A stretch of DNA of 49,960 nucleotides from Macromonas nakdongensis. Lineage in GTDB: Bacteria; Pseudomonadota; Gammaproteobacteria; Burkholderiales; Burkholderiaceae_C. Shown in pieces: positions 905-24,747 of the stretch. Both the position numbers and the translations under genes were made by a program. Numbering within the stretch: the stretch's first letter is position 1; the number at the start of each line of letters is the position of its first letter. The stretch spans positions 1-49,960 of the forward strand of contig NZ_NWMV01000004.1 in assembly GCF_002837145.1 (NCBI RefSeq). Direction: 5' to 3'. Below the pieces are notes generated by a model that saw only the letters and a program-made list of their open reading frames with translations, was not told where the DNA came from and did no database searches.

Positions 905-2497
905 ATGAAAACACTTTTCCCCCGCGAACTGCTGCGCCGTTGTGCACTCAACTACCCCAACAAGCGCGCCTACGTCTGCGGCGCGCGCGCCGCCACCTGG
1001 GACGACATGCACCGCCGCTCCGACCGGTTCGCCCGCGCGCTGCAAGACCTGGGCTGCCGCAAGGGCGACACCGTCTCCATCCTCAGCCAGGAAACCATCG
1101 AGGTCTACGAACACCTGTTCGCCTGCGCCAAGATCGGGGCGGTGCGCGTCGGCGTCAACACCCTGTACGCCTGGCCCGAGATGCAACACGTGCTGCGCGA
1201 CAGCGGCACGAAAATCCTGCTGGTGGACGCACGCTGCCAGGCCATCGTCGACGAACACCTGGCCGAACTGCAGGCGCTCGGCATCCGCCTGATCGGCTTC
1301 AACGGCCCGCACCGCTACCCCCTGGATTACGAAACCCTGCTGGCCCAAGCCCCAGGCGCGCCAGAACTGCCTCCCCTGCAAGACGACGACCTGCTGCTCT
1401 ACAGCTACACCTCCGGCACCACCGGCTTCCCCAAGGGGGTGATGATCAAGCAGGTCGGCGTCTCCAACGTCATCCTGCACTGCCTGGCCTCGTTCGGCTT
1501 CAGCCCCGACGACGTCTGGTACATGCCCGCGGCATCGGCCTGGGCGGTGGTGATCATGAACCTGTTCGGCCTGGGCAACGGCATGACCACGGTCATCCCC
1601 GACGGCGGGTTCCACATCGTGTCCTACCTCAAGGACATCGAAAAATTCCGCGTCACCACCAGCCTGATCGTCCCGACCATGATCCAGCGCGCCCTGGTGG
1701 AGAAACAGAACCACCCCTACGATTTGTCCTCGCTGCGCTGCCTGATGTACGGCTCCTCACCGGCCACGCCCAAGCTGATCCGCGAGACCCGCGAGCAACT
1801 CGGCGTGGCCATGATGCAGACCTACGGCCAGACCGAAACCAGCGGCGGCTGGCTGACGGTGCTGACCGAAACCGACCACCAACTGGCCCTCTCCACCGAA
1901 CCCGGCCTGCTGCGCTCGGTGGGCCGCGTCGGTCTGCACTACGAGTGCACCATCCGCGACGAAGCCGGCCAGGCCCTGCCCCCCAACACCAAAGGCGAAA
2001 TCTGGCTGCGGGGCGAGAGCGTGATGGCCGGCTACCTCAACCTGCCCGAGGCCACGGCCGAGGCGCTGCCCGGCGACGGCTGGTTGCGCACCAACGACAT
2101 CGGGATGATGGACGAACGCGGCTACCTCTTTTTGCTGGACCGGCAGAAGTTCATGATCATCACCGGCGCGGTCAACGTCTTCCCCACCACGGTGGAGGCG
2201 GTGGTCAGCGAGCACCCGGGCATCCAGGAGGTGGCCGTGGTCGGCGTGCCCCACCCCGAGTGGGGCGAGGCGGTGGTGGCCGTGGCGGTGCGCCGCGCCG
2301 GCCACGCCGACCTGAACGCGTCAGACGTGATCCGGTTCTGCGACGGCAAGCTCAGCCGCCCCGAAACGCCCAAGCACGTCGTCTTCGTGCCCGAGCTGCT
2401 GAAAACCGTCAACGGCAAGCTGCGCAAGAACGAAATCCGCGCCTGGCTGACCGACCCGCAGACCGGCGAAATCCCCTGGGACATGAACGTCCACTGA
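905..2497 (+). CDS. AMP-dependent acyl-CoA ligase (ANL superfamily)
   Basis: This 530-residue enzyme should convert a carboxylic acid, ATP and CoA into the acyl-CoA, AMP and pyrophosphate. It shows the phosphate-binding loop YTSGTTGFPKGV near residue 168, the YGQTE motif near residue 306, the hinge region with TNDIGMMDERG, and the C-terminal catalytic lysine region TVNGKLRKNEIR near residue 503. The usual GGENIYP-like motif reads GAVNVFP here, which is unusual but in the right place. The ATG at 905 is preceded by an operator and -10 box at 840-865. It sits directly upstream of a Rieske oxygenase and in the same predicted regulon as a racemase and a TRAP carboxylate transporter, so it probably activates the imported acid. 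The exact substrate cannot be read from sequence. Confidence 0.92.
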   Translation: MKTLFPRELLRRCALNYPNKRAYVCGARAATWDDMHRRSDRFARALQDLGCRKGDTVSILSQETIEVYEHLFACAKIGAVRVGVNTLYAWPEMQHVLRDSGTKILLVDARCQAIVDEHLAELQALGIRLIGFNGPHRYPLDYETLLAQAPGAPELPPLQDDDLLLYSYTSGTTGFPKGVMIKQVGVSNVILHCLASFGFSPDDVWYMPAASAWAVVIMNLFGLGNGMTTVIPDGGFHIVSYLKDIEKFRVTTSLIVPTMIQRALVEKQNHPYDLSSLRCLMYGSSPATPKLIRETREQLGVAMMQTYGQTETSGGWLTVLTETDHQLALSTEPGLLRSVGRVGLHYECTIRDEAGQALPPNTKGEIWLRGESVMAGYLNLPEATAEALPGDGWLRTNDIGMMDERGYLFLLDRQKFMIITGAVNVFPTTVEAVVSEHPGIQEVAVVGVPHPEWGEAVVAVAVRRAGHADLNASDVIRFCDGKLSRPETPKHVVFVPELLKTVNGKLRKNEIRAWLTDPQTGEIPWDMNVH

Positions 2498-21866: not shown

Positions 21867-23015
21867 TCAAGCCTTGGCCTTGCCGCCCTTGTGCTGGGCG
21901 CGGCGGGCGCTGACGGCGTCCGACAGGGTCTGCAGCAACTGCACCGAGTGGTTCCAGTCGATGCAGGCGTCGGTGATGCTCTTGCCGTATTCCAGGGCGC
22001 ACACGTCGTCCTTGCCGGGCGTGAACTTCTGCGCGCCGGCGTGGATGTGGCTTTCCACCATGACACCGAAGACCTGGCGCGAACCGGCGCGGAGCTGTTC
22101 GGCGATGTCGGCGGCCACGTCCATCTGCTTCTGGTGCTGCTTGCTGCTGTTGGCGTGGCTGCAGTCCACCATCAGGGTGGCGGGCAGCTTGGCGGCTTCG
22201 AGTTCGGCACAGGCCGCAGCGACGCTGGCGGCGTCGTAGTTCGGGGCCTTGCCGCCGCGCAGGATCACGTGGCAGTCCGGGTTGCCCTTGGTCTGCACGA
22301 TGGCAACCTGGCCGTTCTTGTGCACCGACAGAAAATGGTGGCCGCGCGAGGCGGCTTGGATGGCGTCGGTGGCGATGCGGATGTTGCCGTCGGTGCCGTT
22401 CTTGAAGCCGATGGGCGCGGAAATGCCCGAGGCCAGCTCGCGGTGCACCTGGCTTTCGGTGGTGCGCGCGCCGATGGCGCCCCAGGAGATCAGGTCACCG
22501 ATGTACTGCGGGCTGATCACGTCGAGGAACTCGCTGCCCGCCGGCAGGCCCAGGCGGTTGATTTCCAGCAGCAGCTGGCGCGCGATGCGCAGGCCTTCGT
22601 CGATCTTGAAGCTGCCGTCGAGGTAGGGGTCGTTGATCAGACCCTTCCAACCCACGGTGGTTCGCGGCTTCTCGAAGTACACCCGCATCACGATTTCCAG
22701 CGTGTCCTTGTACTGCTCGCGCATGTCCTTGAGGCGGCGGGCGTAGTCCATGGCCGCGGCCGGGTCGTGGATGGAGCACGGCCCGATGACGACCAGCAGC
22801 CGGTCGTCCTTGCCCTGCAGGATCTGGTGGATGGTCTTGCGGGTGCTGGCGATGAGTTTTTCCACCTCGGTGCCCTGGATCGGGAAGAAGCGGATGAGGT
22901 GTTCGGGCGGAGGCAACACGGTGATGTCCTGGATGCGTTGGTCGTCGGTCTGGCTGGTGCGGTCGGCGGGGTGCGCATACCAGACGTCGGTCGCGGCGGT
23001 GGCGGCTTTGCTCAT
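21867..23015 (-). CDS. aroG: 3-deoxy-7-phosphoheptulonate (DAHP) synthase, class I
   Basis: This enzyme condenses phosphoenolpyruvate and erythrose 4-phosphate, the first step of aromatic amino acid synthesis. The 382-residue sequence has the class I signatures: VVIGPCSIHDPAAAMDYARR, MRVYFEKPRTTVGWKGLIND, GARTTESQVHRELASG, GFKNGTDG, and VDCSHANSSKQ. It is somewhat longer than E. coli AroG because of an N-terminal extension of about 25 residues. Which amino acid feeds back on the enzyme cannot be told safely. The gene lies behind a leader peptide, antiterminator and intrinsic terminator (23062-23193), so transcription is probably controlled by the supply of charged Phe/Tyr tRNA. Confidence 0.95.
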   Translation of the reverse strand: MSKAATAATDVWYAHPADRTSQTDDQRIQDITVLPPPEHLIRFFPIQGTEVEKLIASTRKTIHQILQGKDDRLLVVIGPCSIHDPAAAMDYARRLKDMREQYKDTLEIVMRVYFEKPRTTVGWKGLINDPYLDGSFKIDEGLRIARQLLLEINRLGLPAGSEFLDVISPQYIGDLISWGAIGARTTESQVHRELASGISAPIGFKNGTDGNIRIATDAIQAASRGHHFLSVHKNGQVAIVQTKGNPDCHVILRGGKAPNYDAASVAAACAELEAAKLPATLMVDCSHANSSKQHQKQMDVAADIAEQLRAGSRQVFGVMVESHIHAGAQKFTPGKDDVCALEYGKSITDACIDWNHSVQLLQTLSDAVSARRAQHKGGKAKA

Positions 23016-23061: not shown

Positions 23062-23093
23062 TAAAAAAAAACCGCCGGGGTGACCGACGGTTT
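23062..23093 (-). terminator. Attenuator terminator in the aroG leader
   Basis: On the minus strand AAACCGTCGG (23093-23084) pairs with CCGGCGGTTT (23078-23069) over 10 bp, with one G-U, around a 5-base loop. Nine Ts follow (23071-23063). It stands 47 bases before the aroG start codon and no gene precedes it except the leader peptide. Its left arm can alternatively pair with 23138-23145. Confidence 0.88.
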
Positions 23094-23145
23094 CTGTGAG
23101 GCTCTGGTGCTTTTCGGGCCAGCTTCAGCTCTCTCTTCCGTCGGT
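23083..23145 (-). promoter_or_regulatory. Antiterminator pairing of the aroG attenuator
   Basis: The minus-strand segment ACCGACGG (23145-23138), lying within the last codons of the leader peptide, is exactly complementary to CCGTCGGT (23090-23083), the left arm of the terminator. Pairing of the two would prevent the terminator. A ribosome stalled on the aromatic codons (23158-23178) leaves the first segment free. A ribosome that reaches the stop codon (23125-23127) covers it and lets the terminator form. Confidence 0.78.
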
Positions 23146-23193
23146 GACGCGTGAGATCCAAAAGTAGGCAAAGTAAAACCGAGCGGCTTTCAT
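23125..23193 (-). CDS. aroG leader peptide, 22 residues, aromatic-rich
   Basis: ATG at 23193 opens a 22-codon frame ending in TGA at 23125-23127. Codons 5-12 read RFYFAYFW: three Phe, two Tyr and one Trp within seven residues. This is the hallmark of an attenuator leader peptide such as those of the phe and trp operons. The run sits the right distance ahead of the antiterminator segment. The ribosome-binding site (TTGAAACG) is weak. No independent function of the peptide is expected. Confidence 0.85.
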   Translation of the reverse strand: MKAARFYFAYFWISRVTDGRES

Positions 23194-23200
23194 GCGTTTC

Positions 23201-23235
23201 AATGTATCACAAACTGCGTGACAGCAGGCTGACAA
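23201..23235 (-). promoter_or_regulatory. Possible aroG promoter
   Basis: On the minus strand a -35-like TTGTCA (23235-23230) and an extended -10-like TGTGATACATT (23211-23201) precede the leader peptide. The spacing is longer than ideal (over 20 bp to the best -10), so the assignment is tentative. No other promoter-like pair stands out in the short gap to tldD. Confidence 0.35.
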
Positions 23236-23286: not shown

Positions 23287-24747
23287 TCAGGCGGTGCCGC
23301 CCACGGTCAGGCCCTCGATGCGCAGCGTCGGCTGGCCCACGCCCACCGGCACGCTCTGGCCTTCCTTGCCGCAGGTGCCCACGCCGCTGTCCAGCGCCAG
23401 GTCGTTGCCGATCATGGTCACTTTCTTGAGCGATTCCGGCCCGCTGCCGACGATGGTGGCGCCCTTGACCGGGTACTGCAGCTGGCCGTTCTCCACCCAC
23501 CAGGCCTGGCTGGCGCTGAACACGAACTTGCCGCTGGTGATGTCCACCTGCCCGCCACCAAAGTTGCTCGCGTACAGCCCCTTCTTGATGCTGGCGATGA
23601 TTTCGGCCGGGTCCTTGTCGCCGCCCAGCATGTAGGTGTTGGTCATGCGCGGCATGGGCAGGTGGGCGTAGCTTTCGCGCCGGCCGTTGCCGGTGGGCGC
23701 CACGCCCATCAGGCGGGCGTTCAGGCTGTCCTGGATGTAGCCGCGCAGGATGCCGTCCTCGATCAGCACGTTCTTCTGGCTGGCACAGCCTTCGTCGTCC
23801 ACGTTGAGCGAGCCACGGCGGTCGGCCATGGTGCCGTCGTCCAGCACGGTCACGCCCTTGGCCGCCACGCGCTTGCCGATCATGCCACTGAAGGCGCTGC
23901 TGCCCTTGCGGTTGAAGTCGCCCTCCAGGCCGTGGCCCACGGCTTCGTGCAGCAGCACGCCGGGCCAGCCGGGGCCCAGCACCACGGTCATTTCGCCGGC
24001 CGGGGCCGGGCGGCTGTCCAGGTTGATGAGGGCGGACTGCACCGCCTCGTCCACGTACTGTTGCAGCAGGGCGTCGTCAAAATGGTCCAGGCCAAAACGG
24101 CCGCCGCCGCCGGACGAACCGATTTCGCGGCGCTCTTTCTGCTCGGCGATGACGGTGACCGACAGGCGCACCAGCGGGCGCACGTCGGCGGCCAGGGTGC
24201 CGTCGGCGCGGGCCACCAGCACCACGTCGTACTCGCTGGCCAGGCCGGCCATGACCTGCACCACGCGCGGGTCTTTGGCCTTGGCCAGGCGCTCCACTTT
24301 TTCCAGCAGCGCCACTTTGGCGCTGCTGTCCAGCGTGGCGATGGGGTCGTGTGCGGGGTAGAGCGAGCGCGATTTGGACACCTTGGTGCGCCCGACCTTG
24401 GCCTTCTGGCTCTGGCCCTGGGCGCCGATGGCGCGCACGCTGTGGGCCGCGTCCTGCAGGGCGGCCCAGGACAGGTCGTCGGAGTAGGCGAACGCGGTCT
24501 TGTCGCCGCTGACGGCGCGCACGCCCACGCCCTGGTCGATGCTGAAGCTGCCGGTCTTGACGATGCCCTCCTCCAGACTCCAGCCCTCGGCGCGGGTGTA
24601 CTGGAAATAGAGGTCGGCGTCGTCCACACCGGGCACCAGAATTTCGCCCAGCGCCTTGCGCAAATGGGTGTCGTCCAGCCCGTAGGGCGTGAGCAGGAGG
24701 TCGTGGGCGGTGGCCAGACGGGCCAGGGTGGGTTCGCGGGCGATCAT
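23287..24747 (-). CDS. tldD: Metalloprotease TldD
   Basis: TldD pairs with TldE/PmbA to form a zinc metalloprotease that degrades unfolded peptides and matures some modified peptides. The 486-residue product has normal length. The metal site motif HEAVGHGLEGD (HExxxH type) is near residue 267. Other family stretches are SGMIGKRVAAKGVTVLDDGT and TNTYMLGGDKDPAEIIASIK. The chosen start is ATG at 24747; the open frame extends into rodA but that part is a shadow of it. It lies 23 bp downstream of rodA and is probably cotranscribed with it. The tldE/pmbA partner is not in the window. Confidence 0.95.
   Translation of the reverse strand: MIAREPTLARLATAHDLLLTPYGLDDTHLRKALGEILVPGVDDADLYFQYTRAEGWSLEEGIVKTGSFSIDQGVGVRAVSGDKTAFAYSDDLSWAALQDAAHSVRAIGAQGQSQKAKVGRTKVSKSRSLYPAHDPIATLDSSAKVALLEKVERLAKAKDPRVVQVMAGLASEYDVVLVARADGTLAADVRPLVRLSVTVIAEQKERREIGSSGGGGRFGLDHFDDALLQQYVDEAVQSALINLDSRPAPAGEMTVVLGPGWPGVLLHEAVGHGLEGDFNRKGSSAFSGMIGKRVAAKGVTVLDDGTMADRRGSLNVDDEGCASQKNVLIEDGILRGYIQDSLNARLMGVAPTGNGRRESYAHLPMPRMTNTYMLGGDKDPAEIIASIKKGLYASNFGGGQVDITSGKFVFSASQAWWVENGQLQYPVKGATIVGSGPESLKKVTMIGNDLALDSGVGTCGKEGQSVPVGVGQPTLRIEGLTVGGTA

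Follow-up and report, generated by a model that had tools for sequence, protein, structure and literature searches.

The window analyzed here, a 49,960-nt stretch of the Macromonas nakdongensis genome, carries on its minus strand a short open reading frame (ORF) and a hairpin with a T-run between tldD and aroG, which encodes a DAHP synthase. The leader is read on the minus strand, and all coordinates are window positions. The features discussed below, with the evidence for each in brackets, are as follows.

23287..24729, minus strand: tldD, a metalloprotease gene upstream of the leader, given for context only, with an approximate start (NF008006, 659.9 bits)
23201..23209, minus strand: extended -10 element TGATACATT (sequence; conserved motif TGnTAnAnT)
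23125..23193, minus strand: leader ORF MKAARFYFAYFWISRVTDGRES, 22 codons plus TGA (sequence; found in 36 of 36 own-family genomes)
23158..23178, minus strand: control codons F-Y-F-A-Y-F-W (sequence; codon placement in 40 leaders)
23146..23156, minus strand: segment 1 (UCUC...CGUC), left part of the anti-antiterminator hairpin (minimum-energy fold; 1:2 covariation)
23138..23145, minus strand: segment 2, left arm of the antiterminator, ACCGACGG (8-bp complement of segment 3; covariation)
23083..23090, minus strand: segment 3, CCGTCGGT, common to the antiterminator and the terminator (sequence; 2:3 and 3:4 covariation)
23063..23093, minus strand: intrinsic terminator, a 10-bp stem plus T-run (sequence, fold, 3:4 covariation)
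21867..23015, minus strand: aroG, class I DAHP synthase, the putatively controlled gene (ORF list; TIGR00034, PF00793)

The gene after the leader, which starts at ATG 23015, had been predicted to be the DAHP synthase gene aroG, and profile searches place its product in class I (545.7 bits against TIGR00034, cut-off 173.2; PF00793 at 2.1e-96). On the other side, the NF008006 match of tldD spans residues 8-480 of the frame 23290-24729, and 93 nt separate the end of this gene from the leader ATG, both lying on the same strand.

Checked base by base, the sequence features of the original prediction hold. The 22-codon frame with its aromatic codons runs from the ATG at 23193-23191 to a TGA stop at 23127-23125. 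The 8-bp complementarity between ACCGACGG (23145-23138) and CCGTCGGT (23090-23083) is exact, and the 10-bp terminator stem before aroG pairs AAACCGTCGG (23093-23084) with CCGGCGGTTT (23078-23069) around a TCACC loop, one of the ten pairs being G-U, with nine Ts at 23071-23063. In the minimum-energy fold the terminator hairpin reaches 12 pairs, extending into the T-run, and segment 1 finds two partners further along the leader, UCUC (23156-23153) pairing with GAGA (23135-23132) and CGUC (23149-23146) with GACG (23142-23139). The inner register of this 1:2 hairpin is unlike that of the family, in which UUCUC pairs with GAGAG and an inner GUCC with GGAC right after the last aromatic codons, yet segment 2 is still locked up. 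The window has an A in segment 2 and a T in segment 3, which makes 2:3 fully Watson-Crick and leaves 3:4 with its one G-U; the same kind of change in segments 2 and 3 is found in one relative, L041.

The folding energy of the whole leader is ordinary (z -1.32; 23 of 200 shuffles fold equally well), and a generic promoter and terminator scanner listed neither element at the leader, probably because the promoter lacks a consensus -35 and because the terminator stem runs into the Ts. The case against a chance arrangement is one of conservation and covariation, not of energy.

AroG was searched in 60 genomes including the source genome; 56 had a match, at 82 places, and upstream DNA was taken for 70 of these (the 12 left out include 4 of the 21 further DAHP synthase genes found in the own family). 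The leader precedes the aroG orthologue in all 36 own-family genomes, no two of which share a genus label. Conservation of the aromatic run in Burkholderiales had been set as a check on the prediction, and it is evident in these leaders: Phe and Tyr occur in 36/36 and Trp in 35/36. Elsewhere in the order, the leader was present at 7 of the 17 fetched DAHP synthase places and absent from the other 10; one of the seven, L035, has an interrupted T-run and was counted by hand. The further own-family DAHP synthase copies (L052-L057, L059-L069) are 55-59% identical to the AroG of the window, and under the same search rule the leader was found before none of the 17 fetched of the 21, so these isoenzymes are probably controlled differently.

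A covariance model, R1, was built from an alignment of 41 leaders (A1; L049 and L058 were left out of 43) and run over 300 genomes of the order. At E <= 0.001 it matched 76 genomes from 45 of 135 genera in 77 rows, 76 of which precede aroG; the 77th is a leuA leader in the source genome. Of the aroG rows, 67 + 6 were located before aroG (the 67 by tblastn), and the remaining three (G038, G047, G054) adjoin aroG places already known, those of L040, L049, and L058. A broader model, R2, trained on 79 leaders mostly from genomes that it then matched again, gave 115 rows in 113 of 399 genomes of the order (63 of 159 genera). Among these rows, 105 had E <= 4.8e-7, and the 104 of them that were checked, all but G632, lie before aroG. 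The ten weak rows, all with E >= 1.7e-5, are not aroG rows: four precede leuA (L282, L283, L287, L288), two (L285, L291) precede small proteins of no known family, and four (L284, L286, L289, L290) have neither aroG nor leuA downstream, the only two genes sought there. The remaining 286 of the 399 genomes had no R2 match, in a search whose filters lose weak matches, and the distribution of the leader in the order is patchy by this measure.

Across the class, 12 of 369 genomes matched, 3 from the own family and 9 from outside it. Four strong matches lie outside the order (L264, L265, and L277 in family f63, and L278 in family f68), all before aroG and with peptides such as FYFWYYFPKPLAEEG and YWFYFFYVF. 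Five others (L266, L267, L279, L280, L281; E >= 3.2e-5) do not precede aroG and were taken as chance matches. Scanning the genome collection independently with a DNA pattern returned at least 120 stretches; among the matches listed aroG comes next in 113/120, and in the other seven the contig ends 67-174 nt beyond the match. The pattern demands TTTTGGTTCTC, so the Trp content of these stretches is no evidence. Genera among the matches listed include Comamonas, Hydrogenophaga, Polaromonas, Rhodoferax, Limnohabitans, Polynucleobacter, and Roseateles, with others; one short metagenome contig titled Desulfovibrionaceae is suspected to be misbinned. Judging by these names, the own family is probably the Comamonadaceae/Burkholderiaceae group of the order.

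Covariation in the two alternative stems, the other check set for the prediction, was detected for both 2:3 and 3:4 in A1 and again in A2, an alignment of 79 more diverse leaders to the model in which all given loci matched. In A1, the 3:4 terminator is paired in 96.2% of cells with 4 double-change cells (covariation score reached by 2/500 shuffles), the 2:3 antiterminator in 92.6% with 6 (0/500), and the 1:2 helix in 83.7% with 23 (0/500). Double-change cells in A2 number 39 for 3:4, 27 for 2:3, and 113 for 1:2, and 0/500 shuffles reach the covariation score of any of the three; 3:4 is paired in 96.9% of cells, with a T-rich stretch after it. Because 1:2 and 3:4 were part of the model to which A2 was aligned, the results for these two are biased toward the structure; 2:3 was not in the model. 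Slid controls were paired in 15-74% of cells, the highest being one 1:2 control at 74% versus about 84% for the true 1:2. The number of further pair types was not beyond shuffles for 2:3 (84/500) and 1:2 (172/500) in A1 or for 3:4 (380/500) in A2. RNAalifold on A1 returned the terminator helix only, and 1:2 and 2:3 were tested by naming them. One triad of columns across segments 2, 3, and 4 reads T-A-T in 25 of the 79 leaders and C-G-C in 21; the shared segment 3 must match both partners, and in these leaders the three columns move together. The leader thus has three mutually exclusive helices with compensatory changes, of which the third, 1:2, is an addition to the earlier picture of two alternative stems.

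To set the placement of the aromatic codons against these helices, every leader was cut off after segment 3 and folded with the bases under a ribosome masked; the footprint was assumed to reach 13-15 nt upstream from the P site and to take in 12 nt counted from the A site's first base. The claim that a ribosome stalled at the aromatic codons frees the antiterminator is borne out in these folds. For the window, the mean pair probability of 2:3 rises from 0.31 in the ribosome-free fold to 1.00 when a ribosome is stalled at Trp and drops to 0.00 when one sits at the stop codon, and every stall at codons 2-14 gives 0.98 or more; across leaders the corresponding means are 0.28 and 0.97 (n = 41) and 0.52 at the stop (n = 40). 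Counted in codons back from segment 2, positions -12 to -4 are 45-95% aromatic and position -3 is 0% aromatic (40 leaders), and an A-site stall gives a mean 2:3 of 0.79-0.98 at -12 to -4 and 0.04 at -3, an edge whose place shifts by about one codon with the assumed footprint sizes. In the model, then, the aromatic codons end exactly where a stalled ribosome would begin covering the antiterminator. The upstream side is unselective, stalls at -16 to -13 giving 0.59-0.75.

The complementary claim, that a ribosome which has reached the stop codon covers segment 2, stands for the window itself and, in the folds, does not carry over to every relative: with the ribosome at the stop, 2:3 falls below 0.1 in 15/40 leaders and stays above 0.5 in 21/40. 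Where the stop lies at +7 (17 leaders) its mean is still 0.78; a ribosome pausing at the stop would leave the switch on there, and fast release would be needed. With segment 4 present and a stalled ribosome, the window gives 0.93 for 2:3 and 0.07 for 3:4. Over all leaders, full-length RNA at equilibrium gives means of 0.10 for 2:3 and 0.89 for 3:4 under the same stall, 2:3 winning in only 4 of 41, the window included, and antitermination in most relatives must therefore rest on the order of transcription.

The conservation of the leader, its constant link with aroG, and the covariation of three helices strongly support the original prediction of a transcription attenuator ahead of the DAHP synthase gene, and we are confident that the leader is a ribosome-mediated attenuator of aroG, whose product is the entry enzyme of the aromatic amino acid pathway. 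From the observed sequence, the three covarying pairings, the aroG link, and the codon placement, we infer the following switching dynamics. Transcription would begin on the leader ATG or no more than a base or two away, and a ribosome would load on the 5' AUG without a Shine-Dalgarno (SD) sequence and translate MKAARFYFAYFW... If charged tRNA-Phe, -Tyr, and -Trp abound, it would reach the stop codon and cover segment 2, leaving segment 3 to pair with segment 4 so that transcription ends at the T-run. When an aromatic tRNA is short, the ribosome would stall on the F/Y/W run and cover segment 1 only, segment 2 would pair with segment 3, and the polymerase would read into aroG. With no ribosome, segment 1 would tend to pair with segment 2 and the terminator would form.

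Which amino acids such a switch would sense can be approached through the codons retained in its control run. Of 105 loci, 12 from the own family, 103 have Phe, 93 have Tyr, and 51 have Trp. Trp is found in 11/11 loci of family f23 and 3/3 of f63, in 0/8 of f4, 1/10 of f8, and 0/6 of f20, and Tyr in 3/10 of f13; judging from these leaders, Trp in the control run is a lineage-specific trait, a caveat on the original prediction that the run would sense all three aromatic amino acids at once. Leader Phe codons are TTT rather than TTC by 99 : 58 versus 43 : 212 in 30 aroG genes (Fisher p 1e-21), and Tyr codons show a weak shift to TAT (p 0.05). Preference for the less used Phe codon fits a sensor, and would equally be expected of a leader kept unstructured.

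These ranks and the strong shift for Phe beside the weak one for Tyr are what would be seen if the attenuator answered to Phe alone, or to Phe and Tyr, with the remaining aromatic codons as passengers, and the comparable AroR attenuator of Corynebacterium glutamicum is described in a review as answering Phe, not Tyr, limitation (PMC11802643). Such narrower sensing fits less well with the own-family leaders, where Tyr is kept without exception and Trp with a single one, or with the position of Trp, which lies -6 or -5 codons from segment 2 in 35/40 leaders, where a stall opens the antiterminator in the folds. We regard it as a serious contender, somewhat short of an even chance.

The start of the leader bears on the loading step. 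The element TGATACATT (23209-23201) ends 7 nt before the leader ATG, and no consensus -35 accompanies it. For the pattern-scan loci the in-frame ATG was used, the promoter being consulted only where several ATGs lay within 60 nt, and two of the 120 loci were dropped for having no start in the stretch. Among the matches listed, TGnTAnAnT is perfect in 113 of the remaining 118 loci, the distance from the motif (5 or 6 of 6) to the ATG is 6-8 nt in 111/118, and an SD-like 4-mer occurs in 0/118; shuffled upstream DNA yielded the perfect 9-mer in 9 of 2360 trials. The first spacings in the ortholog set are biased, the start having been chosen partly by -10 score, and the 105-locus set chose its starts without the promoter. 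With promoter-blind starts, the best -10-like site lies 5-9 nt before the start in 10/12 own-family loci, 8/8 of f4, 9/10 of f13, 10/11 of f23, 7/11 of f10, 6/10 of f44, and 4/8 of f11; in f3, f8, f20, and f32 the best -10-like site falls at 5-9 nt in 0/27 loci. SD-like 4-mers in the 105-locus set do occur in f4 (4/8), f11 (2/8), and f23 (1/11), those of f4 probably arising from the -10 itself, which is TAGGAT in some. By this survey the promoter layout is common, not universal.

From the promoter spacing, by which the start site is predicted, the leader ORF is probably leaderless. Transcription might instead start further upstream, with an unrecognized site loading the ribosome. The four families whose best -10-like site lies outside 5-9 nt could be read that way. 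We think an upstream start unlikely given the near-perfect motif, fixed spacing, and lack of an SD-like 4-mer in the own family, where blind choice of the start leaves the spacing in place. A start-site study of Burkholderia cenocepacia also places a TA-rich promoter motif immediately ahead of leaderless genes (PMC4603805).

A leaderless start has been described for peTrpL (PMC7298713), and by analogy with rnTrpL/peTrpL of Sinorhizobium the aroG leader might mainly yield a trans-acting small RNA or peptide, a reading that could also appeal to the peptide tail WFS-x-x-GGRE, which many own-family leaders share. The RNA segments lying in its codons account for this tail; L017 and L159 keep the segment 2 nucleotides with a different frame, and the constant aroG link argues for action in cis, so that we consider a mainly trans-acting product very improbable. 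That the hairpin and T-run are a mere terminator of tldD, with a short ORF there by chance, is hardly credible despite the proximity of that gene, since the TldD C-terminal motif lies upstream in only 17/36 own-family leaders (the other 19 are without it within the 214-304 nt read) and a plain terminator has no need of conserved aromatic codons or covarying 1:2 and 2:3 helices.

Attenuation at the entry enzyme would be a sensible substitute for the regulators TyrR and TrpR. The TrpR profile matched 0/40 relatives and gave no match in the source genome; the TyrR-type helix-turn-helix (TIGR04381) scored over its cut-off in 1/40 and at E <= 0.001 in 3/40, with none in the source genome. Of 14 control genomes for the two profiles, E. 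coli alone was positive, in both. A comparative study describes TrpR and TyrR as conserved in gammaproteobacteria and absent in other classes, and names RNA-level control for trp and pheA (PMC5343134).

The source genome has a second leader with this promoter layout, at C106:44135-44267 on the plus strand (L101:1501-1633), whose ORF MNFARAFLLLALCRHGQVD contains Leu codons. The same TGATACATT stands 7 nt before its ATG, a hairpin with a T-rich tail can be made out by eye, and the gene directly after it is leuA (NF002087 and TIGR00973 above cut-off). It shares with the aroG leader the promoter layout, a short ORF, and a hairpin, but differs in its Leu codons and its leuA target, and scores only 36.9 bits with R1 and has no R2 match. 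Two weak model matches, L105 and L106, also lie in this genome.

A third promoter-pattern match in this genome, C138:4114, was rejected as an attenuator and taken as the predicted leaderless start of a toxin-antitoxin pair with the same promoter layout (C138:4114-4132, minus strand; L104:1717-1146, minus strand). The second protein of this pair is HigA (TIGR02607, 101.6 bits against 47.7) and the first is weakly RelE-like (TIGR02385, 19.6 against 27.9). Separately, L285 (about 1590-1430, minus strand) and L291 (about 970-1110, plus strand), from two families of the order, have YFYWYR leaders with a terminator-like hairpin. The downstream proteins (204 and 168 aa) gave no Pfam or NCBIfam match above cut-off, and the gene after these leaders may be under aromatic amino acid control.

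Taken more broadly, the leaderless Phe + Tyr + Trp attenuator could be an old, lineage-wide control on entry into aromatic synthesis in Burkholderiales (with two families of the class outside the order), filling the role of enterobacterial TyrR/TrpR and belonging to a wider leaderless set (aroG, leuA) with one promoter layout. We offer this tentatively, at just about an even chance or slightly below. If true, RNA polymerase and the first ribosome would start on nearly the same base in the aroG/leuA layout, and the leader peptide would probably be translated from the very 5' end. The basic mechanism of attenuation has long been known; what the comparison adds is a well-supported RNA family for the first committed step in making aromatic amino acids, in a large group of bacteria where searches of 40 genomes mostly failed to find the textbook regulators TyrR and TrpR. 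Annotation of the leader peptide and switch now becomes possible in many genera, and the aroG leader is a clear case on which to test whether three amino acids can be integrated by a single leader.

No family of Rfam 15 reaches its gathering score in the window, and among the papers listed in searches of the open-licence literature, which omits most subscription journals, none reported an attenuator of aroG in Burkholderiales. The enterobacterial Phe_leader family (RF01859) matches the leader end to end with 25 bits against a gathering score of 55, a score on which membership was rejected, and matched none of 16 relatives at E <= 5. The other weak sub-threshold matches in the window (sroD, STnc240, CRISPR-DR20, sR14) were likewise set aside. 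The 16 relatives gave four sub-threshold Rfam matches, including one to ncS54 on L027 (25.6 bits against 43, E 0.14), a lead that was dropped, the main text of the describing paper containing neither aroG nor DAHP (PMC5688073).

A classical likeness is to the pheL-pheA leader of enterobacteria represented by RF01859, which likewise combines a Phe-rich leader peptide with an attenuator; that leader controls pheA, whereas the one in the window would control a DAHP synthase. In trpL and the other classical amino acid attenuators, the ribosome stalls at control codons and the segments pair exclusively as 1:2, 2:3, or 3:4. The aroG leader probably shares this way of working with them; unlike them, it has mixed Phe/Tyr/Trp codons and stands before the common entry enzyme instead of a terminal branch. 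For its predicted leaderless start there are parallels in peTrpL/rnTrpL of Sinorhizobium meliloti, where the trpL leader peptide is described on a leaderless mRNA (PMC7298713), and in the ilvBNC leader peptide of C. glutamicum, also described on a leaderless mRNA (PMC11857589); these concern Trp or branched-chain amino acids and other lineages.

Attenuation of a DAHP synthase itself has a precedent in C. glutamicum, and the kind of control is in that sense already known. The aroR leader and aroF attenuator of that organism were reportedly described by Neshat et al. in 2014. As reviewed elsewhere, an aroR leader with Phe-Tyr-Phe attenuates the DAHP synthase operon (aroF), transcription being enhanced on Phe limitation (PMC11802643, PMC4046766). 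Compared by description, the two systems share a leader peptide with Phe-Tyr-Phe before a DAHP synthase gene; aroR/aroF is actinobacterial, with no Trp mentioned in its run, whereas the leader described here belongs to Burkholderiales and has a conserved sequence and three covarying helices. The particular traits of the aroG leader are its mixed aromatic codons and its probable leaderless start.
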